From: Bacteroidales bacterium
GTDB taxonomy: Bacteria; Bacteroidota; Bacteroidia; Bacteroidales; UBA1402
Reading direction: 5' to 3'
NCBI GenBank assembly: GCA_021373135.1
Contig: JAJFTH010000003.1
Span: 124,001 to 188,000, forward strand
DNA: 64,000 nucleotides
Shown: in pieces, positions 13,803 to 28,233 of the stretch
Layout: every line of letters starts with the position of its first letter
How positions within the stretch are numbered: position 1 is the stretch's first letter
Position numbers and translations under genes: made by a program
Notes under the pieces: generated by a model
Seen by the model: the letters and a program-made list of their open reading frames with translations, nothing else
Told to the model about the DNA's origin: nothing
The model's database searches: none

Positions 13803-14507
13803 ATGGGCCTGTTGGAAAGAATTATCGATTGGGATCAGGAGATGTTATTGTTGGTCAATGGCTATCATCTCCCATGGTTGGACAGGTTTATGTGGTTGCT
13901 TTCTGAAACGATGATGTGGACACCCGTTTTGTTGGTGATGATCATTGTGCTCATCCGCAACAAAAAAGGACAGACGTTCTTTATATTGCTCGCTTTTGGA
14001 CTATTGCTCGCTTTTACAGATCAGATATCCTCCGGAGTCATCAAACCTTTGGTTGCCAGGTTTCGTCCGACCTATGACCCTGAAATTTCAAATCTCGTTC
14101 AAGTGGTCAATCATTACAAAGGAGGGGAGTTTGGTTTCATTTCAAGCCATGCAGCCAACGTTTTTGCCTTTGCCGGACTAAGCATCTTGTTTTTTAGAAA
14201 TTGGTTCTATTCACTCGTGATTTTGCTTTGGGCGATAGCTGTTTCGTACTCAAGGATTTATCTGGGTGTCCACTTCCCTTTGGATGTGGTTTCCGGGGCT
14301 TTGTTCGGGATCCTTTCTTCCATTGCTTTTTATTATCTATATAAGTTCATCATTCAAAAGAGTACAGACATTCGTCTCATTACAGACCGGAGGTCAAGAC
14401 AAATGACGATAAGCAATTATAGGAAGTCAGACCTTTCTTTTATCGTGATTTCATTGCTGTTGGTGGTGGTTACCATGTTATCCGCATCCTTTTATCTGAG
14501 TTGGTAA
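13803..14507 (+). CDS. PAP2-family membrane phosphatase
   Basis: A 234-residue protein with about five or six membrane helices and the three PAP2 motifs: KPLVARFRP, SSHAANVFAFAG (variant of PSGH, catalytic His) and SRIYLGVHFPLDVVSG. Family members remove phosphate from lipid substrates such as undecaprenyl pyrophosphate or phosphatidic acid. The substrate cannot be told from sequence. A tail of about 50 residues (after QKSTDIRLITDRR) includes one more hydrophobic segment. It lies 10 bp after batE and is probably co-transcribed. Confidence 0.9.
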   Translation: MGLLERIIDWDQEMLLLVNGYHLPWLDRFMWLLSETMMWTPVLLVMIIVLIRNKKGQTFFILLAFGLLLAFTDQISSGVIKPLVARFRPTYDPEISNLVQVVNHYKGGEFGFISSHAANVFAFAGLSILFFRNWFYSLVILLWAIAVSYSRIYLGVHFPLDVVSGALFGILSSIAFYYLYKFIIQKSTDIRLITDRRSRQMTISNYRKSDLSFIVISLLLVVVTMLSASFYLSW

Positions 14508-16231: not shown

Positions 16232-17305
16232 ATGAATAAGACGACAGACAGCAAATGGCGTGAGATTCTAATTTTGGCAGGAATAGTTTTACTGTTCAGG
16301 ATTTTCTATGTCGAAATTCTCGATTATCTGAAATCGGATTATCAATTTGATTTTGAAAACATACTCAAAAATATTTTCAGAGAATACCCGATTTCTCTAT
16401 TTATTGCTGTCGCTGGTTTTTTCTCAATCCGTCGCATTAATAAACATTATTCCTGGGGTGAAAATCCGTTGCTAAGAATTCTTTTGTTTATTTTGGCGAG
16501 TGTTGCAATTTCGTCAATTGTAACTATGCTGTATTGTATTCCAAAATTGAAACAGTTATCATGGAAAGATTTGGTTGCCAGCGGACATATTGAAGGAGCT
16601 TTCGTTGTTACCACCGTTTTGACTGTGACAATTATGGGGAGCATCGATATTGTGCTGTATTATCTCAAATCTCACAAGAAAGCGTTGGATGCTGAAATCC
16701 TGAAAAAGAATAAAGCTCGTTTTCAATATGAACAACTAAAACGTCAGCTTAATCCACATTTCCTGTTTAACAGCCTGAATGTGTTAGATTATTTGGTACA
16801 TACAGATCCGGAGCGCGCGAGTGGTTATATTAAAAAATTGGCTGGAGTCTACCGTTACTTGCTTAGCAAAGAGAGTGATCCAGTTGTTTATTTAGAAGAA
16901 GAAATGGAATTTGTGAACATGTACGTCAATTTGTTAGAAGAGCGCTTTAAAAATGGTCTTGAAGTTTCGATCAAGATCGAGGATCAATATTTAAAAACAC
17001 TTGTTATACCTTGTAGTATTCAATTGCTTATCGAGAATGCAACCAAACATAATATTATCAGCGAATCATCGCCTCTTTTTGTTAAAGTCTATGCGAAAGA
17101 TCATTATATCTATGTAGAAAATAATTATCAACCGCGTATCAGATCTGATGCTTCCACAGGAGTTGGGTTAAAAAATATTGACGGACAAATTAGTGCGTTA
17201 TTTAATAAGAACATAGAAATTTCCAAATTGCCAGATAAATTTATTGTGAAACTTCCCGTTATTGAGAATAAAGGAAGCCAACTTTTTTTTAAGACTGAGT
17301 CATGA
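16232..17305 (+). CDS. LytS/YehU-type sensor histidine kinase
   Basis: A 357-residue membrane kinase. Four hydrophobic segments in the first 150 residues are followed by the His_kinase domain of the LytS group, with QLNPHFLFNSLNVLDYL (phosphorylated His176), and a divergent ATPase region including LLIENATKHN and TGVGLKNI. It should pass phosphate to the LytTR regulator encoded next, which it overlaps by 4 nt. There is no large periplasmic sensing domain, so the signal may be sensed within the membrane or through the small membrane protein encoded upstream. It stands directly before the PUL. Confidence 0.9.
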   Translation: MNKTTDSKWREILILAGIVLLFRIFYVEILDYLKSDYQFDFENILKNIFREYPISLFIAVAGFFSIRRINKHYSWGENPLLRILLFILASVAISSIVTMLYCIPKLKQLSWKDLVASGHIEGAFVVTTVLTVTIMGSIDIVLYYLKSHKKALDAEILKKNKARFQYEQLKRQLNPHFLFNSLNVLDYLVHTDPERASGYIKKLAGVYRYLLSKESDPVVYLEEEMEFVNMYVNLLEERFKNGLEVSIKIEDQYLKTLVIPCSIQLLIENATKHNIISESSPLFVKVYAKDHYIYVENNYQPRIRSDASTGVGLKNIDGQISALFNKNIEISKLPDKFIVKLPVIENKGSQLFFKTES

Positions 17306-18057
17306 GAATTCTTATCATCGAAGATGAGCTTCCTGCACAAATTCAGCTTGAGAGACTCATTCAATCATTTTTTCCTAAATCTGATATTGTAGCGAAGATT
17401 GACTCCGTAAAAGCATCTGTTTCATGGCTTGAGAAAAACCACGCAGATCTGATATTTATGGATGTAGAATTATCAGATGGCCAATGTTTTGAAATATTCA
17501 AACAAGTTTCTATTGACACGCCCATCATCATCACTACAGCATATAGTGATTATGCCATTAAGGCATTTAAGGTGAATAGCATTGATTATTTATTGAAGCC
17601 AATAGATGACGGTGAATTTGTTCAAGCTGTAGAAAAATCAATTAGATATAATCAGAAAGAGCGTTTTGATTTTCGGAATATGGAAAGATTACTTATCCAA
17701 AATACTACGAAAGAATATAAAAAACGTCTTACAATAAAAATCGGAGATCATATCCATATTTTGAATATGGATGAAATAGCCTATTTTTATTCGGAAGAGA
17801 AAGCTACATTTGTTGTAACAAATGCGGATAAACGCTATATTCTGGATTATTCACTTGATAGTTTAGATGACCAGCTTAATCCAAAAGACTTTTTCCGAGT
17901 TTCCCGTGGATGTGTTGTCAACATCAAATCCGTGCAATCCGCTTCAAAGTTCTTCAACAGTCGGCTTAAAATCAAACTAAATCTCCCCATGAAAAAAGAT
18001 ATTCTGGTAAGCCGTGCTCGTGTTTCTGAATTCTTAAAATGGCTGGAAGGATTGTAA
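17302..18057 (+). CDS. LytTR-family response regulator
   Basis: A 251-residue protein: receiver domain at about 1-120 (IIEDELPAQ acidic pair; LIFMDVELSDG with phospho-acceptor Asp54; TAYSDYAIKAF; LLKPID) and a LytTR DNA-binding domain at about 145-250 (DEIAYFYSEEKATFVVT, FFRVSRGCVVNIKSV). LytTR proteins bind paired short direct repeats upstream of target promoters. The nearest downstream gene is susC, 190 bp away on the same strand, with a 9-bp direct repeat at its promoter, so the PUL is the first candidate target. Confidence 0.92.
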   Translation: MRILIIEDELPAQIQLERLIQSFFPKSDIVAKIDSVKASVSWLEKNHADLIFMDVELSDGQCFEIFKQVSIDTPIIITTAYSDYAIKAFKVNSIDYLLKPIDDGEFVQAVEKSIRYNQKERFDFRNMERLLIQNTTKEYKKRLTIKIGDHIHILNMDEIAYFYSEEKATFVVTNADKRYILDYSLDSLDDQLNPKDFFRVSRGCVVNIKSVQSASKFFNSRLKIKLNLPMKKDILVSRARVSEFLKWLEGL

Positions 18058-18247: not shown

Positions 18248-21190
18248 ATGAAAAAAATCAGATTTATGCTTTCAGTCTTTTTCCTTTTGTGCTTGAGTGT
18301 GAATTCTATAGCACAAAGAAAGACCTTGCAAGGCACGGTGGTAGACAAAGATAACCAAGCAATAATTGGTGCTTCTGTGATAGAAAAGGGTACCCAAAAC
18401 GGAACCATCACAGATGCTGATGGGAATTGTGTTATCAGTGTAAGCAAACCAAATGCCATCATTCAGATTAGCTCTATTGGTTTCGAAAACAAAGAACTGA
18501 CAGCATCAGATTTTTCCGGAAGGAAAAGGATTCAGCTTATTGAATCGTCCGTTTCACTAAACGAAGTGATTACTATTGGTTACGGACAGGTCAGAAAAGG
18601 TGATGCCACAGGATCTTTAAATACGATAAAGCCAGATGCTCTTAATAAAGGAAGGCAATTGACCGTTCAGGATGCCTTGGTAGGTAAAGTTGCCGGAGTC
18701 AATATTGTTCCAGGATCAGGAGCACCTGGTACTGGTGGTACCATCCGCATACGTATGGGAGCTTCACTTTCTGCTACCAATGACCCTCTTATTGTCATTG
18801 ATGGAATACCTGTAAGCAACACGTCTGTCAGTTCAATCAATCCAAATGATATAGCCACCTTCACCGTTTTGAAAGATGCTTCTGCTACTGCTATTTACGG
18901 TTCTCGTGCTTCGAATGGTGTAATCATCATTACAACAAAAAAAGGCAATGAAAATGGCGATGGAAAGCCACAGATAAATTATAGCAGTAATTTTACATTG
19001 AGTGATGTGTCCGGTAAGCTGGATGCTCTCTCTGCAGATGAATATCGTATAGCATTTGCTGAAAACTCTGGAGCACCTGCTGACTTTGAATTGGGTACAG
19101 CTTCTACAAATTGGCAAAATGAAATATATCGTTCGGCTTATGGCACAGACCATAATCTATCTGTAACAGGAAATGCCAAGCATATTCCTTACCGGGTATC
19201 CGTTGGCTATACCAATCAAAATGGAATTATCAAGCAAAATAATTATGAGCGATTTAATGCCGGATTAGGTTTGTCCCCCAAATTTTTTGAAAAACACTTA
19301 TCTGTAGACATTAATTTAAAAGGTAGCATTGAAAATGATAAATCCATTTCCGAAGATATAATCGGCACAGCCGTCTCGTTTGATCCGACTCGTCCAGTCC
19401 ATGAATCTTATACCAATAATGTCGGCCTTGGATATTTTACCTGGATGTCAGGAGGTGCACCGATTGCTATAGCTTCAAGTAATCCTGTTGCCGATCTTTA
19501 TCTAACGGATAAATTAGATAAAACCATGCGCTCTATTGGAAATATAGCTTTAGATTATAAAGTCCATGGCCTCGAAGATTTGCATCTTAATCTGAATGTA
19601 GGTTATGACATATTGAGAAATAATAATGACGAGTTCTCTCCTCAATATGCTCCTTTGATGTATATTTCCAACCAAAAAGATGGGACAGGAAAAGATTATT
19701 CCTATGTTCAAGATAAGAAAAACTACTTATTGGATTTGTATGCCAACTACAGCAAGAAATTTGGAGAAAACCACTCTTTAAGTGCAATGGGCGGTTATGG
19801 ATGGCAACGCTTTTGGTATAAAAACAACAGCACGACAAACGACACTTTTGGTAACGAACTATCTTCACCATTACATGAGGAAGCAGAATTATATCTTCTT
19901 TCTTTCTTCGGACGTTTAAATTATTCTTACGCCCAAAAATACCTACTTACAGCGTCATTAAGAGCCGATGCATCTTCCCGTTTTTCATCTGAAAATCGTT
20001 GGGGATATTTTCCTTCAGTAGCAGCCGCTTGGCGCATCAAAGAAGAGAACTTTCTTAAAGACGTAGATTTTTTATCCGATCTGAAACTACGTTTAAGCTA
20101 TGGGCAAACAGGGCAACAAGATATTGGTTCCTATTATCAACATCTTTCCACTTATACCGCATCTTATAACGAGTCCCGTTATCTATTTGGAGATAAATGG
20201 ACCACAATATATCGACCAGATGGATATGATCCAAATATAAAATGGGAAACAACAGAAACGTACAATTTTGGTTTAGATTATGGCTTCCTAAATAATCGTA
20301 TTTCCGGTGGCATTGATATCTATAAACGTTATACATCAGATCTTCTGAATGAAATATATGTTCCTGCCGGAAGTAATTTTACCAATGTTATCGAAACAAA
20401 TATTGGAAATATGGAAAGCAAAGGTATTGAATTTGCTATAAGCGGAATTCCTGTAAAAACCAAAGATTGGGAATGGACTATAGGTGGAAATTTTACCTGG
20501 AATGATTCCAAGATTACAAAATTAAATACAATTGATACGGATGATAATTATATAAAAACAGGAGATGCAGGCGGTACGGGTAAATATCTTCAAGTACATA
20601 TGGTCGGCGAAACACCCAACACCTTCTTCCTATTGAAACAAGCTTACGATGAGAATGGAAAACCACTTGACGGACAATATGTTAAAGAGGATGGAACGAT
20701 TACGACAAGTGAAGAAGATGTAAATAAATATGTAACCGGTAAAACTTCGAAGGCACCCTATTATTACGGATTATCAACCAGACTTATTTATAAGGATTGG
20801 GACTTTGGAATAAATGGTCATGGTAGTTTTGGCAATTATGTATATAACTATGTTGCAGCAAGTGAGTCCTTGGATGATTTATATACTGCAAACGGCACAT
20901 CCGGAAATATTCTTAAATCAACACTTGAAACAGGATTTACCCAACAACGCCTTTATACCGACTATTTTCTTGAGAATGGCGCTTTTTTCCGTCTTGATAA
21001 TATAACCTTGGGTTATACATTCAAAAAGTTGTGGAATTCATCAAGTTCTTTACGCTTGTCGTTTAGTGCTCAAAATATTGTCACTATTACCGGTTATTCA
21101 GGGCTTGATCCTGAAATATACAGCGGTATAGACAAAAATGTGTATCAACGTCCGAGGGTTTATATGCTTGGCGTGAATCTAAACTTTTAA
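18248..21190 (+). CDS. SusC/RagA-type TonB-dependent outer-membrane receptor
   Basis: A 980-residue protein. Signal peptide about 1-22 (ends NSIAQ), carboxypeptidase-regulatory-like domain about 25-105 (GTVVDKDNQAIIGASV), plug about 115-235 with the SusC/RagA signature DPLIVIDGIPVSN and DASATAIYGSRASNGVIIITTKKG, then a 22-stranded barrel ending in an aromatic residue (GVNLNF). It forms the TonB-driven import channel for a glycan bound by the SusD partner encoded 18 bp downstream. The substrate is inferred as alpha-glucan from the adjacent GH31 and GH13 genes. Confidence 0.95.
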   Translation: MKKIRFMLSVFFLLCLSVNSIAQRKTLQGTVVDKDNQAIIGASVIEKGTQNGTITDADGNCVISVSKPNAIIQISSIGFENKELTASDFSGRKRIQLIESSVSLNEVITIGYGQVRKGDATGSLNTIKPDALNKGRQLTVQDALVGKVAGVNIVPGSGAPGTGGTIRIRMGASLSATNDPLIVIDGIPVSNTSVSSINPNDIATFTVLKDASATAIYGSRASNGVIIITTKKGNENGDGKPQINYSSNFTLSDVSGKLDALSADEYRIAFAENSGAPADFELGTASTNWQNEIYRSAYGTDHNLSVTGNAKHIPYRVSVGYTNQNGIIKQNNYERFNAGLGLSPKFFEKHLSVDINLKGSIENDKSISEDIIGTAVSFDPTRPVHESYTNNVGLGYFTWMSGGAPIAIASSNPVADLYLTDKLDKTMRSIGNIALDYKVHGLEDLHLNLNVGYDILRNNNDEFSPQYAPLMYISNQKDGTGKDYSYVQDKKNYLLDLYANYSKKFGENHSLSAMGGYGWQRFWYKNNSTTNDTFGNELSSPLHEEAELYLLSFFGRLNYSYAQKYLLTASLRADASSRFSSENRWGYFPSVAAAWRIKEENFLKDVDFLSDLKLRLSYGQTGQQDIGSYYQHLSTYTASYNESRYLFGDKWTTIYRPDGYDPNIKWETTETYNFGLDYGFLNNRISGGIDIYKRYTSDLLNEIYVPAGSNFTNVIETNIGNMESKGIEFAISGIPVKTKDWEWTIGGNFTWNDSKITKLNTIDTDDNYIKTGDAGGTGKYLQVHMVGETPNTFFLLKQAYDENGKPLDGQYVKEDGTITTSEEDVNKYVTGKTSKAPYYYGLSTRLIYKDWDFGINGHGSFGNYVYNYVAASESLDDLYTANGTSGNILKSTLETGFTQQRLYTDYFLENGAFFRLDNITLGYTFKKLWNSSSSLRLSFSAQNIVTITGYSGLDPEIYSGIDKNVYQRPRVYMLGVNLNF

Positions 21191-21193
21191 ATT

Positions 21194-21199
21194 AGGAGG
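21194..21199 (+). promoter_or_regulatory. Strong Shine-Dalgarno before susD
   Basis: AGGAGG ends 9 bp before the susD ATG at 21209. Such perfect sites are unusual in Bacteroidota and fix this start. Confidence 0.7.
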
Positions 21200-21208
21200 A
21201 ATCTATTT

Positions 21209-22903
21209 ATGAAAACAAATATCATAAAATATATATCTATTGCTGTTTTAACACTTCCCCTGTTTACATCTTGTCTAAGCGACTTGGACACATTGCCACT
21301 GGATTCCAATCAGCTTGTAGGTGAAGAGGTTTATCAAACATCCGATGGCTATCGTGGCGTATTGGCCAAGTGTTATGCATCATTGATCCTTACAGGTCAA
21401 GAGGGTGGAGACGGCGGAGATGGTGACGTACCAAGTATTGATGAAGGTTACAGTGGTTATACCAGGGCACTCTTCTATCTTCAGGAAGCATCTACCGATG
21501 AAATTGCGTTTCATGCAGGTAGTAGTCACGGTTCACTCACTATGTTATATATGAACTGGAATCCATCTACCAAGCTTGTCAGTTATCCATACTATCGCCT
21601 TTATATGGCGATAGGGTATTGCAATGAATTCTTGCGTGAATGCACTGAATCCAAACTGAAAGACAGGGGTGTATACGAAAAACTTAAAAATGAATATGAA
21701 TACTATAGGGCAGAAGTCCGTTTTATCCGTGCATACTGCTATAATGCGATATGTGACCTTTACGGATCAGCACCATTTGTAGACGAAACAATGGCTATAG
21801 GAACCATTCCCAGTCAGAAAACCCGAAAAGAAATTTATGATTATGTCGTATCAGAAGGAGAAGCATTGACGACATTGCTAAAAGAACCTGGTACCAATGA
21901 ATATGGTCGTGTGGATCAAGTTGCAGATTGGTTTTTATTGGCCCGTGTATATTTAAATGCAAAGACTTGGGTTAATGAGGACCAGTATGAGAAAGCATAC
22001 CTTTATGCTAAAAAAGTAATTGAAGATGAAAATTATCATTTGGCTCCCGATTATCGTCAAATATTCTTGGCTGATAACAATACCTGTTCTGAAATAATAT
22101 GGCCTTTGGTTCAAGATGCCGACAATGCACAAAGCAGTGCTGGTACTAATTTCTGTATTAAAGCATTGATGAATGGCAGTATGAATAATTACTTTTTTAC
22201 GGGTGTTGGAACCAAAGGTTGGGGAAATGGCCGAGTAAAAACACAATTGGTTGATTTATTTGATCTATCCGATCAAACTTTTGATGTAAACGACACATGG
22301 GGTGATAATAAAAAAGACAAAAGAGCTCAATTTTTTACGATAGGCCATACCAAAGAAACTTGGGTTACGGGAAAAGCCTTCCAGAAAGATTTTGCCAATG
22401 GATATGCTTGTATTAAATGGAGAAATGTCACAAAAGACAGAAAAGAACTTGTAGAAGGCGGAACTGTTTATTCTTCTGTTGATTTTCCGATGTTCCGTAC
22501 AGCAGATGCTTATTTAATGGCTGCAGAAGCTATTCTTCGTGGCGCAAGCGGAACTCGTCAAAATGCGTTGGATTATGTGAATGAAGTTAGAGACAGAGCC
22601 TATATGTCAGGTAGTTATGGTAATGGAATATCCGGAAGAATCACCGACAGTCAGTTGACATTAGATTTCATTTTGGCAGAACGCGGACGTGAATTATATA
22701 CAGAACTGATACGCCGTACTGATCTTATCCGTTTTGATAAATATACAAAAGGATACAATTGGGATTGGAAAGGAAGTGACGGTGCCGCTGGAAATTATGT
22801 AGGAAAAGACGTTGATGACAAATACAAGTTGTTCCCAATACCACAAGATGAATTTACGGTTAATCCGTATTTAACTCAAAATTCAAACTATGTAAATAAC
22901 TGA
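21209..22903 (+). CDS. SusD/RagB-type surface glycan-binding lipoprotein
   Basis: A 564-residue lipoprotein. The lipobox is LFTSC with lipidated Cys22, followed by a Ser-Asp-Leu-Asp segment of the kind seen in surface-exported Bacteroidota lipoproteins. SusD features include TPR-like helices (YYRAEVRFIRAYCYNAICDLYG), FPMFRTADAYLMAAEA, and the conserved end ILAERGRELYTELIRRTDLIRF. It caps the SusC barrel and hands over oligosaccharide. A strong intergenic palindrome follows the gene. Confidence 0.95.
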   Translation: MKTNIIKYISIAVLTLPLFTSCLSDLDTLPLDSNQLVGEEVYQTSDGYRGVLAKCYASLILTGQEGGDGGDGDVPSIDEGYSGYTRALFYLQEASTDEIAFHAGSSHGSLTMLYMNWNPSTKLVSYPYYRLYMAIGYCNEFLRECTESKLKDRGVYEKLKNEYEYYRAEVRFIRAYCYNAICDLYGSAPFVDETMAIGTIPSQKTRKEIYDYVVSEGEALTTLLKEPGTNEYGRVDQVADWFLLARVYLNAKTWVNEDQYEKAYLYAKKVIEDENYHLAPDYRQIFLADNNTCSEIIWPLVQDADNAQSSAGTNFCIKALMNGSMNNYFFTGVGTKGWGNGRVKTQLVDLFDLSDQTFDVNDTWGDNKKDKRAQFFTIGHTKETWVTGKAFQKDFANGYACIKWRNVTKDRKELVEGGTVYSSVDFPMFRTADAYLMAAEAILRGASGTRQNALDYVNEVRDRAYMSGSYGNGISGRITDSQLTLDFILAERGRELYTELIRRTDLIRFDKYTKGYNWDWKGSDGAAGNYVGKDVDDKYKLFPIPQDEFTVNPYLTQNSNYVNN

Positions 22904-22920
22904 TAAATGACTATGATTTT

Positions 22921-22951
22921 ACAGGACATGTTGTATCACAACATGTCCTGT
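22921..22951. terminator. Perfect 14-bp palindrome between susD and the phosphatase gene
   Basis: ACAGGACATGTTGT, a 3-nt loop, then its exact complement ACAACATGTCCTGT. The hairpin is very stable but is followed by AATTAAAATT, not a clean T-run. It may be a partial terminator or a 3'-end protector giving higher susCD than enzyme mRNA, as intergenic hairpins do in other operons. Confidence 0.6.
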
Positions 22952-23031
22952 AATTAAAATTATTTATCAAAGAAAATGTCTGTTCGTTTTCCTTTTTTTT
23001 TATTTGCATTAATTTACATAAGAATTTAAAA

Positions 23032-24147
23032 ATGAATATAATAAAATACTCGTTAATCGTATTTACGGGGTTATCTCTATTCTCATGCAATACAAATCGT
23101 GCTTTAAGTGAAAACGACCAGGCAGGCGTAAAGAACGTTATCTATATGATTGGTGACGGTATGGGGCTGGCTCATGTAACAGCAATGATGATTGAACAAA
23201 AATACGAGCCTTGCGCTTTTGACAGAGCTGAAGCTGTGGGCCTTGTCAAGACTTTTTCTGCCAACAACCGGATCACGGATTCAGCAGCAGCTGGTACAGC
23301 TCTGGCAACAGGCAACAAAACCAATAATGGCATGCTGGGATTGACACCTGGAGGTGATACTATCCAGAGTGTGCTTTCACGTGCCGGCGTATTTGGGAAA
23401 AAAACGGGCATTGTCGTTACTTGTGAAATTGAAAATGCAACTCCTGCTGCGTTTTATGCACATGTTGATAACCGGAGCAAATCGGCAGAGATTGCATTAC
23501 AACTTTCTCATGACAGTATTGACGTTCTTTTCGGTGGGGGAATGAAGTATTTCAACGGACGGGATGACGGAATAGATCTTGTTAAAAATCTTAAAGCAAA
23601 AAATTATCAGGTTTTTGATAAATGGACTGATGCCATACAAGTTAAAAATGGAAAAGTTGCGGCATTTGTTGCTCCCGGCCACCTTCCGTACCATGATGAC
23701 GGCAGAGGTGATTTTTTGCCTGAAGCTACATCAAAAGCATTGGAAATATTGACCAACGATAGTCAGGCATCTGGTAACAAAGGCTTTTTTATGATGGTTG
23801 AAGGCTCACAAATAGATTGGGCAAGTCATGGAAACCAATTCTCCAAGTTGTTGCATGAGGTGAACGATTTTGAAAAGTCAGTTAAGATAGCTTTTGATTA
23901 TGCAGACGCACATCCTGGAACCTTAGTTGTTGTTACGGCTGACCATGAAACGGGTGGCCTTATTATGCCTTCAGGAAATGTGGATTTTACTAAAAGCGAG
24001 AGTGGTATAGATTACAAATTCGGCTCAGTCAGTCATACCGGTATCATGGTTCCGCTGTTTGCCTATGGTAAAGGTGCTGCAAACTTTACAGGTATTTTTG
24101 ATAATACAGATGTGCCAAAAATAATAAATAAGTTATTAGGTTTATAA
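23032..24147 (+). CDS. Alkaline phosphatase lipoprotein
   Basis: A 371-residue PhoA-family alkaline phosphatase. The lipobox is LFSC with lipidated Cys19. Metal and active-site motifs are MIGDGMGLAHVTA (first metal Asp), TDSAAAGTALATGNK (nucleophilic Ser of DSAAAGTA) and VTADHETGG. It is shorter than E. coli PhoA (471), as is common for Bacteroidota members that lack some insertions. It should remove phosphate from monoesters in the periplasm or at the cell surface. It lies inside the PUL, between susD and GH31, on the same strand. Confidence 0.95.
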   Translation: MNIIKYSLIVFTGLSLFSCNTNRALSENDQAGVKNVIYMIGDGMGLAHVTAMMIEQKYEPCAFDRAEAVGLVKTFSANNRITDSAAAGTALATGNKTNNGMLGLTPGGDTIQSVLSRAGVFGKKTGIVVTCEIENATPAAFYAHVDNRSKSAEIALQLSHDSIDVLFGGGMKYFNGRDDGIDLVKNLKAKNYQVFDKWTDAIQVKNGKVAAFVAPGHLPYHDDGRGDFLPEATSKALEILTNDSQASGNKGFFMMVEGSQIDWASHGNQFSKLLHEVNDFEKSVKIAFDYADAHPGTLVVVTADHETGGLIMPSGNVDFTKSESGIDYKFGSVSHTGIMVPLFAYGKGAANFTGIFDNTDVPKIINKLLGL

Positions 24148-24191
24148 TTCTAAGGTTTTTATAGAAAAGTGTACGCAATATTTATAATAAA

Positions 24192-26333
24192 ATGATTATG
24201 ACAAGAAATTTTCTTTCATTCATATTACTCTTTCTAACACTGACGGTTGCATCGGAGGCGAAAGATCAGCGGGACAAATTGATAGCCCGCCAAGTCGCAG
24301 TATTCTATCCTTCGGATTTTGATTCTGTGGCCAATATGCCCTCTTTTGCTTTGATAAAAGAATTTCCTGCTATTGGAAAAGTTCCGGATTCCTGGAAACT
24401 TAATCCTGTATTTTTTCATTCTGGTAAGTATAGTTGCGTGTCTCTTCCTGTAAAAAAAGGGACCAGTTTATATGGATCAGGTGAAACGACCGGATCGTTG
24501 CTAAGAAATGGAAATGATATCACATTATGGAATACCGATAATTTTAATTATGCAGGTTTTGATGGAAAGCAACTTTATCAGTCTCATCCGTGGGTTCTTG
24601 GCGTAAATGTAGACGGTACAGCTTTTGGTATAATAGCTGATAATACCTGGAAGCAAAAACTTATTTTGAATGATAGCATCAAATTCATCTCTGAAGGACC
24701 TGCTTTTCGTGTAATCGTTATACAAAAAGACTCTCCTCAGGCTGTTTTGACAGCCCTGTCTGAACTTGTTGGAAAAATGGATTTGCCCCCGCTCTGGAGT
24801 CTGGGATATCAACAATGCCGTTATTCTTATTTTCCTGATAGTAGAGTAAAACAAATTGCAGATGAATTTCGTAACCGGAAAATTCCTTGCGATGTAATAT
24901 GGTTTGACATAGATTATATGGATAAATTCAAAGTTTTTACGTTTGATAAAAATATCTTTCCTGACCCTAAAGGTTTAAATGATTATCTTCATGATAGAAG
25001 CTTTAAAACTATTTGGATGATTGATCCTGGGATTAAAGCAGAAGAAGGATACATGGTGTATGATTCCGGCTCAAAAGGCAACCATTGGATTAAAGATAAG
25101 AACGGCAAGGATTTTGTTGGTAAAGTGTGGCCTGGTGATTGTAAATTTCCGGATTTCACAAGGCCACAAACGCAAAAATGGTGGAGTGACTTCTATAAGG
25201 ATTTTATGGCAACAGGTATAGACGGCGTTTGGAATGATATGAATGAACCGTCTGTTTTTGAGGTGGATAGTAAAACCATGCCAATTGATAATCAACACCG
25301 TGGTGGGGAGCTCTTGCCCCCGGGGCCGCATCTCCGTTACCATAATGTGTACGGTATGCTGATGATCAAATTTTCACGCGAAGGAATTTTGAAAGTTCAT
25401 CCTGATAAACGGCCTTTCATTCTTTCGAGGTCTGGGTATCTGGGAAGCCATCGTTATGGTGCAACCTGGACTGGAGACAACATGGCTTCCACCGATCATC
25501 TCCGGCTTTCCATTCCTATGTCTCTCAATTTAGGGCTTTCAGGTCAATTTTTTAACGGTGCTGATATTGGTGGATTTGCAGAAAATACAACGCCTGAGCT
25601 TTTTGGACAGTGGATAGCATTGGGTGTTTTTTATCCATTTTCCAGAGGACATGCATGCAAGGGCTCGAATGACAAAGAACCCTGGGCTTTTGGCCCTGAG
25701 ATTGAAAAAGTATCACAGATGGCCTTGAACAGACGCTATCGACTTCTTCCATATCTCTATACACTGTTTCAGGAGGCATCTTCAACAGGTGTACCTGTGA
25801 TGCGTCCCATCTTTTTTGCTGATATAAAGGATACGACACTTCGTCGTGAAGAACAATCATTTCTTTTGGGTAAGGATTTGATGGTTATTCCAAAATGGGC
25901 AAAAAATCCGGCCATGCCAAAAGGAATTTGGAGAAACATTTCCATTGCTGGTGAAAACAGTCAGAATGATCAGTATCAACCGGATGTAAAAATTCGTGAA
26001 GGAGCTATTGTTCCGGTTGGAAAATGCATTCAGAATACGACAGAATACAGTACCGACTCGCTGACACTGATTATTTCAACCAATGCCAATGGTTTTGCAG
26101 AAGGAAGATTGTACGAAGATGCCGGTGATGGGTTTGGTTATAAACGGGGTCAGTATGCTTTTTGGACTTTCTCTGCCAGCACAAAAAGCGGAGTCGTAAC
26201 GGTGAAAGCCAGAAAATCTGAAGGGCGATTATCTTCAAAACCAAAAATGTTTAAAGTCATGCTATATACAAAAAATGGTGTTATTGAAAGTTCCTGGAAA
26301 AAAGGCCCAGTCTTAAATATAAAATTTAGGTGA
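24192..26333 (+). CDS. GH31 family glycoside hydrolase, probable alpha-glucosidase
   Basis: A 713-residue protein with a signal peptide (about 1-22), an N-terminal beta-sandwich, the GH31 barrel, and C-terminal beta domains. Catalytic residues are visible: WNDMNEPSVF with nucleophile Asp349, and TWTGDN with the acid/base Asp429. The barrel also shows YQQCRYSYFPDSRV and the IWFDIDYMD-type segment. Family members retain configuration and most often release glucose from alpha-1,4/1,6 glucans; alpha-xylosidase or other activities cannot be excluded. An alternative ATG lies at 24198. It replaces the GH97 SusB of the classical sus locus. Confidence 0.93.
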   Translation: MIMTRNFLSFILLFLTLTVASEAKDQRDKLIARQVAVFYPSDFDSVANMPSFALIKEFPAIGKVPDSWKLNPVFFHSGKYSCVSLPVKKGTSLYGSGETTGSLLRNGNDITLWNTDNFNYAGFDGKQLYQSHPWVLGVNVDGTAFGIIADNTWKQKLILNDSIKFISEGPAFRVIVIQKDSPQAVLTALSELVGKMDLPPLWSLGYQQCRYSYFPDSRVKQIADEFRNRKIPCDVIWFDIDYMDKFKVFTFDKNIFPDPKGLNDYLHDRSFKTIWMIDPGIKAEEGYMVYDSGSKGNHWIKDKNGKDFVGKVWPGDCKFPDFTRPQTQKWWSDFYKDFMATGIDGVWNDMNEPSVFEVDSKTMPIDNQHRGGELLPPGPHLRYHNVYGMLMIKFSREGILKVHPDKRPFILSRSGYLGSHRYGATWTGDNMASTDHLRLSIPMSLNLGLSGQFFNGADIGGFAENTTPELFGQWIALGVFYPFSRGHACKGSNDKEPWAFGPEIEKVSQMALNRRYRLLPYLYTLFQEASSTGVPVMRPIFFADIKDTTLRREEQSFLLGKDLMVIPKWAKNPAMPKGIWRNISIAGENSQNDQYQPDVKIREGAIVPVGKCIQNTTEYSTDSLTLIISTNANGFAEGRLYEDAGDGFGYKRGQYAFWTFSASTKSGVVTVKARKSEGRLSSKPKMFKVMLYTKNGVIESSWKKGPVLNIKFR

Positions 26334-26391
26334 GAAAGTAGATTTTTGCTGTATCTTTAATGGTGGAGTCGTCATTTTATACTTTTATCGC

Positions 26392-28233
26392 ATGAAAAGG
26401 ATTTTGATTTTTCTCAGTTTATTAATTTTTTCGTTTGAGCTTTTTGCCTCTATCTCAATTAATAGACTTGAACCATCTTTTTGGTGGGCAGGTATGAGAA
26501 CTTCAGAGTTTCAAATTATGGTTTATGGAACGAACATAGGGAACGCCAAGGTCGTGTGTCAGACTCCAGGAGTCTTGTTAAAAAGTGTTGTAAAGGCTGA
26601 AAGTCCCAATTATTTGTTCCTGTATTTAGACTTGAGCCATGCTATTCCAGGAAAAATTGATCTGCTTTTTAAGCAAGGGAAGGAAAAGAAAACGGTTAGT
26701 TATGAGCTGAAAGCCAGAACGGCTGCTCCTGAATCCCGTAAAGGTTTTACTACTGCAGATGTGCTTTATTTGTTGATGCCTGACCGATTTTCCAATGCGA
26801 ATTCGGAAAATGACAATCAAAAGATGAAGTATTGCACTGTAAATGTGAATCGTAGTGATCCTGGTTCCCGTCATGGAGGAGATTTGGCTGGAATCAAGCA
26901 ACATCTGGATTACATCGCAGATCTTGGAGTCACCGCCATCTGGCTTAATCCGGTTCTTGAAAATGATATGCCCGGAGGGGCTTATCACGGTTATGCAATC
27001 ACGGACTTTTATAGAATTGATCCACGTCTTGGTACAAACGAAGACTATAAAAACCTGATATGCGAAGCCCACCAAAGAGGATTAAAGGTGGTTATGGATA
27101 TGATATTCAATCATTGTGGCAGCGAACATATTTGGAGAAAAGATTCACCCTTTAAAGATTGGTTTAATTCCCCGGATAAATTGATTCAAACAAATCATGC
27201 TAAAAATGTAAGATATGACCCTTATGCCTCCGATTACGACAAAAAGAATCTGTATGATGGTTGGTTTGTTGAAAGTATGCCGGATTTGAACCAACGGAAT
27301 CAGCATTTGGCCAAATATCTCATTCAGAATAGTCTCTGGTGGATTGAATATGCTGAGATTGACGGCATACGTCAAGATACTTATCCATATACAGATACGT
27401 CAATGATGTCTGAATGGTGTAAGGATGTTATGATTGAATATCCAAACTTTAATATCGTCGGTGAAATCTGGTTGGAAAATACTGTTGGAGGAGCAATCTG
27501 GCAAGCGCATAGTCATTTGAATAAAGGGGTAGACTCTGAGTTGAAAACGGTGATGGATTTTGCATTAATGAACGCTTCGTTTGATGCTTTTAACCAGGAA
27601 ACAAATGGGGAGAATGGCCTTAGCCGGCTCTATGATATCTTAGGCCTTGATTTCCTCTATCAAGATGTGAACAACTTGTTGGTTTTTTTTGAGAATCATG
27701 ATACGGAAAGGTTTTTACGCGAGAGACCTCAGGACTTATCCGTTTTCAAACAAGCTTATGCTTTCTTGTTTACCACCCGCGGTATTCCTCAGCTTTATTA
27801 TGGTGCTGAAATATTGATGAATGGAGAGAAAAAAGGAAATGATGGAAATGTCCGTCTGGACTTCCCCGGAGGTTGGAAAAATGATTCTGTGAATGCTTTT
27901 ACACCTGAGGGACGATCTGTTATTCAGAATGAAGCGTTTAACTATATGAGAAAACTATTGAATTGGCGAAAAAACAATGAAGTGATAGCCAAAGGCTCGC
28001 TTCTCCATTTTAAACCTCAAAATGGTGTGTATGTCTATTTACGATCTTATAATGGGAAAAAAGTATTGGCGATACTAAACGGAGTTAGTACGAAAAATAT
28101 CATTTCCTGGGATAAATATGCAGAAATACTTATCGGTGCTTCATCTGGTAAAGATGTAATGACAGGAAAGACTGTCAGTTTTGAGAAAGAATTAACATTG
28201 GCTCCACGTGAGACGTTAATTCTTGAATTTTAG
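26392..28233 (+). CDS. GH13 cyclomaltodextrinase/neopullulanase-type alpha-amylase (SusA-like)
   Basis: A 613-residue protein: signal peptide about 1-20, N-terminal cyclomaltodextrinase-type domain about 21-110 (RLEPSFWWAGM), GH13 barrel, C-terminal beta domain. Conserved regions: DMIFNHCG, GIRQDTYPY with nucleophile Asp329, GEIWLE with acid/base Glu358, FFENHDTER with Asp437. The domain order matches SusA-type neopullulanases, which act in the periplasm on imported maltodextrins. A hairpin after the gene probably ends the PUL transcript. Confidence 0.93.
   Translation: MKRILIFLSLLIFSFELFASISINRLEPSFWWAGMRTSEFQIMVYGTNIGNAKVVCQTPGVLLKSVVKAESPNYLFLYLDLSHAIPGKIDLLFKQGKEKKTVSYELKARTAAPESRKGFTTADVLYLLMPDRFSNANSENDNQKMKYCTVNVNRSDPGSRHGGDLAGIKQHLDYIADLGVTAIWLNPVLENDMPGGAYHGYAITDFYRIDPRLGTNEDYKNLICEAHQRGLKVVMDMIFNHCGSEHIWRKDSPFKDWFNSPDKLIQTNHAKNVRYDPYASDYDKKNLYDGWFVESMPDLNQRNQHLAKYLIQNSLWWIEYAEIDGIRQDTYPYTDTSMMSEWCKDVMIEYPNFNIVGEIWLENTVGGAIWQAHSHLNKGVDSELKTVMDFALMNASFDAFNQETNGENGLSRLYDILGLDFLYQDVNNLLVFFENHDTERFLRERPQDLSVFKQAYAFLFTTRGIPQLYYGAEILMNGEKKGNDGNVRLDFPGGWKNDSVNAFTPEGRSVIQNEAFNYMRKLLNWRKNNEVIAKGSLLHFKPQNGVYVYLRSYNGKKVLAILNGVSTKNIISWDKYAEILIGASSGKDVMTGKTVSFEKELTLAPRETLILEF

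Follow-up and report, generated by a model that had tools for sequence, protein, structure and literature searches.

The window, a 64,000-nucleotide stretch of a Bacteroidales genome, contains a row of five genes on the positive strand at positions 18248-28233: susC, susD, a gene for a PhoA-family lipoprotein, a GH31 gene and a SusA-like GH13 gene. This order and the shared strand, described in a first-pass annotation, were confirmed by gene and domain calls. The intergenic gaps from susC to the GH13 gene were, in order, 18, 128, 44 and 58 bp. The row and the regulatory features associated with it are listed below.

16232..17305, + strand: sensor histidine kinase, possible regulator (PF06580)
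17302..18057, + strand: LytTR response regulator (PF04397, PF00072)
18248..21190, + strand: SusC-like TonB-dependent transporter of a phosphatase-linked clade (TIGR04056, 754 bits)
21209..22903, + strand: SusD-like lipoprotein of the same clade as SusC, without the aromatic starch platform (PF07980)
22920..22952, + strand: stem-loop with a perfect 15-bp stem in the susD-phoA gap, a possible attenuator (sequence, fold)
23032..24147, + strand: alkaline phosphatase lipoprotein of the PhoA family, resembling 2iuc and filling the phosphatase slot (PF00245, 240.8 bits)
24192..26333, + strand: GH31 alpha-glucosidase, probably periplasmic, with a signal peptide but no lipobox (PF01055, 405.5 bits; 5djw, 1.2e-257)
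26392..28233, + strand: SusA-like GH13 (neopullulanase/cyclomaltodextrinase), probably periplasmic, with a signal peptide but no lipobox (Pfam; 9fyz, 1.5e-210)

On the 3' side, the locus is followed by a tRNA-Pro gene on the opposite strand and then by aspS. No SusE/F-like gene was found between 18248 and 28233, and the locus contained no surface (lipoprotein) amylase, its sole GH13 having a signal peptide that lacks the lipobox cysteine. A gene for a PAP2-superfamily phosphatase lies on the same strand a few kilobases upstream (13803-14507 of the window), in a separate gene group. The GC3 of susC and susD was low (0.294), with values of 0.33-0.36 in the rest of the locus and 0.32-0.51 in 17 other genes. 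The locus genes other than susC and susD are thus at the low edge of the 17-gene range, and no conclusion about transfer was drawn from GC content. Promoter-like matches (53, versus a mean of 42.8 with sd 6.3 in shuffles) were too weak for use as evidence.

The N-terminus of the PhoA-family protein, MNIIKYSLIVFTGLSLFSC, is lipobox-like. All of the active-site blocks of the enzyme are present (GDGMG, TDS, AHVDNR, EGSQIDWASH, TADHETGG and HTG), and the protein has the nucleophile serine and the metal-ligand motifs of the PhoA family. Its nearest solved structure was the alkaline phosphatase 2iuc (1e-67), ahead of the E. coli enzyme. The GH31 and GH13 proteins aligned near full length with the alpha-glucosidase 5djw and the neopullulanase SusA 9fyz, respectively, and the GH13 contained the Pfam domains Alpha-amylase with Cyc-maltodext N and C. 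Another GH13 of the host genome had only 30% identity to that of the locus, and no second GH31 was found in this genome at E <= 1e-60. The same genome contains a second, distant PhoA-family gene (L046, G000:C8:156000-175999; 34% identity to the window PhoA), which has no genes resembling the window locus in its surroundings.

The SusCD clade and the gene after susD

Relatives of the importer were picked by SusC similarity alone, and their neighbours were disregarded. In the order search, three SusCs stood out at 62-64% identity (G144, G221 and G290), the next ones being below 50%. The family of G144 (101 genomes) contained 11 clade SusCs, and the family of G221 (15 genomes) contained 4, with G144 and G221 themselves included. 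We read the neighbourhoods of 13 clade members (L149-L151 and L209-L218), with G499-G501 left out. The window proteins are 56-67% (SusC) and 58-77% (SusD) identical to those of these members. The clade formed a single group with 100/100 support in the SusC tree and in the SusD tree, with the window inside it and apart from the starch-type SusCDs sampled.

In all 13 other members, a phosphatase gene directly follows susD on the same strand. The enzyme in this slot is a histidine phosphatase of the phytase/MINPP branch in 12 members and a PhoA-family protein in one (L218; PF00245, 45% identity to the window PhoA). All three histidine phosphatases that were scanned matched PF00328, and one that was compared with solved structures matched the histidine acid phosphatase 7r5y and BtMinpp; the nine remaining ones were recognised by 60-87% identity to those scanned. 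The motifs RHGSR and HDG are kept in 12 of 12, and MINPP enzymes have HAE where the slot enzymes have HDG. We held back from naming these 12 proteins phytases in view of the HDG motif, glucose-1-phosphatase-like activity being also possible.

Neither GH31 nor GH13 was found nearby in any of the 13 relatives. A DUF6377 protein is encoded before susC in all 12 relatives with enough upstream sequence (two by Pfam, the rest by similarity). No DUF6377 match was found within the window, and its position there is occupied by the histidine kinase (16232..17305).

Two of the relatives have a CotH kinase-like gene right after the histidine phosphatase (L149:5881-7260 and L215:14131-15507). A CotH-like match was also present in the starch-type row of L154, and CotH recurs beside unrelated envelope enzymes. 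In L210:1-8772, genes for glycerol-3-phosphate dehydrogenase, glycerol kinase and a glycerol facilitator were recognised by eye beyond the histidine phosphatase and a DeoR-like gene; their presence hints that the ligand might be glycerol phosphate.

The stem-loop in the susD-phoA gap of the window has a predicted fold of -30.5 kcal/mol (z -4.67), and none of 200 shuffles was as stable. Hairpins were seen at the susD-phosphatase junction in 7 of the 13 relatives, those with longer gaps (folds without shuffle control). Five others have junction gaps of 15-27 bases and no hairpin, and L216 has a weak fold. The stem-loop may lower the level of the enzymes relative to SusCD, or divide the transcript. 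Because of its place between susD and phoA, a single unbroken transcript is not certain.

For comparison, 37 places with a SusC were surveyed. Nine were outside the clade at 43-47% identity, two of which (L114 and L121) end before the gene after susD. Among the genes walked in the seven readable starch-type SusCD loci (L152-L158; 45-47% SusC identity), we found no phosphatase of either kind. A GH13 gene is part of the row in five of the seven, and the rows of L156 and L157 end early. Of the comparison loci, L139 and L153 have SusE/F, with SusE confirmed by Pfam in the starch-type L153. Fisher's test for a phosphatase in 13 of 13 clade members versus 0 of 7 starch-type loci gave 1.3e-5, a value that ignores kinship, as 11 of the 13 relatives belong to one family (f20) and hence are not independent.

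More distant SusCDs also occur near PhoA genes, separated from them by one or two genes, in L122:8336-19748 (G216; 31% SusC identity) and L187 (G299; 26%). In L122, a calcineurin-like phosphoesterase gene lies between SusCD and PhoA, and a GH88 gene is present too. Thus, the combination of SusCD and PhoA arose in other clades as well.

The clade also differs from starch-type loci in SusD. The solved relatives nearest to the window SusD were 3jys and SusD 3ck7. At the positions of W96, W98, N101 and Y296 of SusD, which we take to be the starch contacts of its aromatic platform, the window protein has F, A, S and S by alignment, suggesting that it has lost this platform. All six starch-type SusDs have a tryptophan at a position where the clade has glycine. 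Ninety-two columns were fixed in 13 or all 14 of the clade members and rare in the six starch-type ones; these clade-specific residues include His102, within the lost platform stretch, and Lys318. In bulk and net charge, the clade SusDs were not more positive than the starch-type ones and gave no sign of an anionic ligand.

The two PhoA enzymes in the slot have separate histories. The SusC and SusD of L218 branch elsewhere in the clade than those of the window in both trees. In a PhoA tree of 85 sequences (FastTree, rooted at the midpoint), the window protein pairs with L050 (0.83). The L218 protein pairs with L058 (0.69) on a separate branch, within a three-member group supported at 0.995. 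With both the phosphatases and the SusCDs on separate branches, PhoA therefore entered the slot at least twice. The simplest history would be one in which the slot held a histidine phosphatase and the enzyme was replaced by PhoA at least twice. The persistence of the slot beyond its enzyme is good evidence that phosphate removal is needed. From these sequences, the phosphatase is predicted to be the core partner of the importer, with GH31 and GH13 as a local addition.

Occurrence of the locus genes in other genomes

Among the 12 other genomes of the family, GH13 was detected in one (E <= 1e-60, 40% identity) and GH31 in none at the same cutoff. Eight of the 12 have a phosphatase of 43-46% identity to the window PhoA, and in the neighbourhoods read, no other gene of the window locus was near these homologues. 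In the 393 genomes of the order, the window's own included, PhoA (E <= 1e-60) was found in 124, GH31 (1e-100) in 43 and GH13 (1e-100) in 208; SusC (1e-200) was found in at least 129, the SusC search having scored the two best candidates per genome, so that its counts are lower bounds.

A conserved five-gene PUL did not emerge from these searches. The first-pass annotation had proposed looking for the same gene order elsewhere, and the five-gene order was absent from every other genome examined. Linkage of PhoA and GH31 in relatives was also rejected: in 17 other order genomes with both genes (E <= 1e-60 for PhoA, E <= 1e-100 for GH31), none had them close, the two being on different contigs in 15 genomes and separated by 590 kb or more in the other 2. 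Relatives of the GH31 lie behind a distant SusC (L138-L141) or away from any SusCD (L130 and L132), and L139 has the SusE/F, GH66 and GH97 neighbours of a dextran type. In G229, which encodes close relatives of the GH31 and of the GH13, the two are on separate contigs (C3 and C6). The PhoA relatives are mostly stand-alone genes, and most of their neighbourhoods that were read contained neither SusCD nor GH13.

A SusA-like GH13 gene directly before a PhoA gene was found in four loci of two other families: L164:5722-15676 and L165:4542-15849 (f68), and L178:8527-10998 and L199:2-4910 (f110). L164 and L165 were chosen for close coordinates, and no frequency is implied. These tandems share a SusA-like GH13 gene and a PhoA-family gene with the window, but they lack a SusCD of the clade, and their PhoAs group together on another branch than the window PhoA (L178 being represented by its duplicate, L078). 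Thus, alpha-glucan enzymes and PhoA met at least twice. Three of the four tandems have CotH-like genes downstream, recognised by Pfam in L164 and L165 and by eye in L199. In L164, a 1,430-aa protein with a sub-threshold GH57 match is encoded before the GH13, and a protein of similar size is present in L165.

Interpretation of the locus

The first-pass annotation had read the locus as an alpha-glucan PUL with a built-in phosphatase. What stands of this reading is a functional tie between the phosphatase and the locus, as indicated by the slot in 13 of 13 relatives. The notion of an alpha-glucan PUL with an inserted phosphatase was not supported, the SusCD clade being phosphatase-linked and glucanase-free elsewhere and its SusD here lacking the aromatic starch-binding residues. 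For the same reasons, only GH31 and GH13 point to an alpha-glucan ligand; they accompany a clade SusCD in the window alone, and their link to the ligand comes from one genome. The gene content of the clade suggests that the importer takes phosphate-bearing molecules rather than plain starch. We consider it probable that the locus is an uptake module of SusCD and phosphatase, extended with two alpha-glucosidases, and that its ligand carries phosphate monoesters. Possible ligands are phosphorylated alpha-glucans, inositol phosphates and sugar phosphates.

In such an extended module, SusD would capture the phosphorylated ligand, and TonB-driven SusC would import it. The lipid-anchored PhoA would strip phosphate at the envelope, since we propose that a charged, capped molecule cannot proceed as such. 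The remaining alpha-linked glucose would be cut by the presumably periplasmic GH13 and GH31, in an order of action that is likewise presumed, and the cell would gain phosphate and glucose. The genes of the locus would be expressed jointly.

A less probable reading is that the locus scavenges organic phosphate (inositol phosphates, sugar phosphates or glycerol phosphate) in the manner of a phosphate utilisation system (PUS), with GH31 and GH13 as separate cargo. The phytase/MINPP-branch phosphatase of 12 of the 13 relatives agrees with such scavenging, as do the separate contigs of the GH31 and GH13 relatives in G229. So does PUSII of Flavobacterium johnsoniae, a SusCD with PhoA, in a species whose PusCD is induced by phosphate depletion (PMC8115612). 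However, the glucosidase genes of the window are tightly spaced behind phoA, and no further GH31 or GH13 close to these two was found in the genome. We regard as rather unlikely a PUL for phosphorylated alpha-glucan, in which the phosphate esters of a starch or glycogen oligosaccharide would obstruct GH13 and GH31 until PhoA removes them; this reading is a particular form of the extended module, and the confidences placed in the two overlap. In its favour, GH31 and GH13 come close behind phoA in the same orientation (gaps of 44 and 58 bp), and GH13-then-PhoA tandems of one PhoA lineage occur in two other families. Against it are the 13 SusCD relatives without GH31 or GH13 nearby, the loss of the SusD starch platform, the lack of SusE/F and of a surface amylase, and the GH31 relatives placed behind a distant SusC or away from SusCD.

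Chance proximity, in which an unrelated phoA dropped into a PUL, was the alternative offered by the first-pass annotation. PhoA homologues are indeed common (124 of 393 order genomes, E <= 1e-60) and mostly stand alone. Chance is nonetheless very improbable, because all 13 readable SusCD relatives have a phosphatase in the slot, which PhoA entered on two separate occasions. With considerable doubt, the extended-module reading might be carried further: the clade could be specialised in importing phosphorylated carbohydrates or polyols, its phosphatase obligatory but interchangeable, and the window a true phospho-glucan utilisation locus.

The ligands of SusCD pairs are usually guessed from neighbouring glycosidases. 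In this clade such a guess would give the wrong substrate, because the persistent neighbours are phosphatases and glycosidases are the exception. If the extended-module reading is true, Bacteroidales would have an outer-membrane pathway devoted to inositol phosphates or to phosphorylated sugars or glucans, with consequences for the use of starch phosphate or phytate.

Comparison with known systems

The Sus of Bacteroides thetaiotaomicron shares SusC, SusD and a SusA-like GH13 with the window and carries GH97 where the window has GH31. Like starch-type systems, the window has a SusC/SusD pair and, in the same locus, a GH13 and an alpha-glucosidase. Unlike them, it has no SusE/F, no surface lipoprotein amylase and, judged by the contact residues named above, no SusD aromatic platform, and it contains a phosphatase. 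Because these three defining features are absent, we did not class the locus as a member of Sus.

The 12 Bacteroidales loci with a SusCD and a MINPP-branch histidine phosphatase are of the same clade and have the phosphatase directly after susD, but their phosphatase is of another fold, DUF6377 lies upstream, and glucosidases are absent. Among the matches listed from the part of the open-licence PMC literature that was available, we recognised no paper describing a SusCD with a MINPP-branch phosphatase.

A PUS is defined as a SusCD-like complex co-located with a phosphomonoesterase or diesterase, and PUSI and PUSII are contrasted with CAZyme-bearing PULs (PMC8115612). PUSII of F. johnsoniae, PusC2-PusD2-PhoA1 (Fjoh_3251-3249), shares with the window a SusC-SusD pair beside a PhoA-family phosphatase, a likeness of gene content rather than of aligned SusCD sequences (PMC8115612). 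The passages on PUSII in that paper show low-phosphate induction and name no GH31 or GH13, whereas the window has both after phoA (PMC8115612). Thus, the window has the co-located SusCD and phosphatase of a PUS as so described, and we did not class it as a full member because its cluster contains glycosidases. By analogy, the locus would work like the phosphate utilisation systems of Flavobacterium, with alpha-glucosidases added (PMC8115612).
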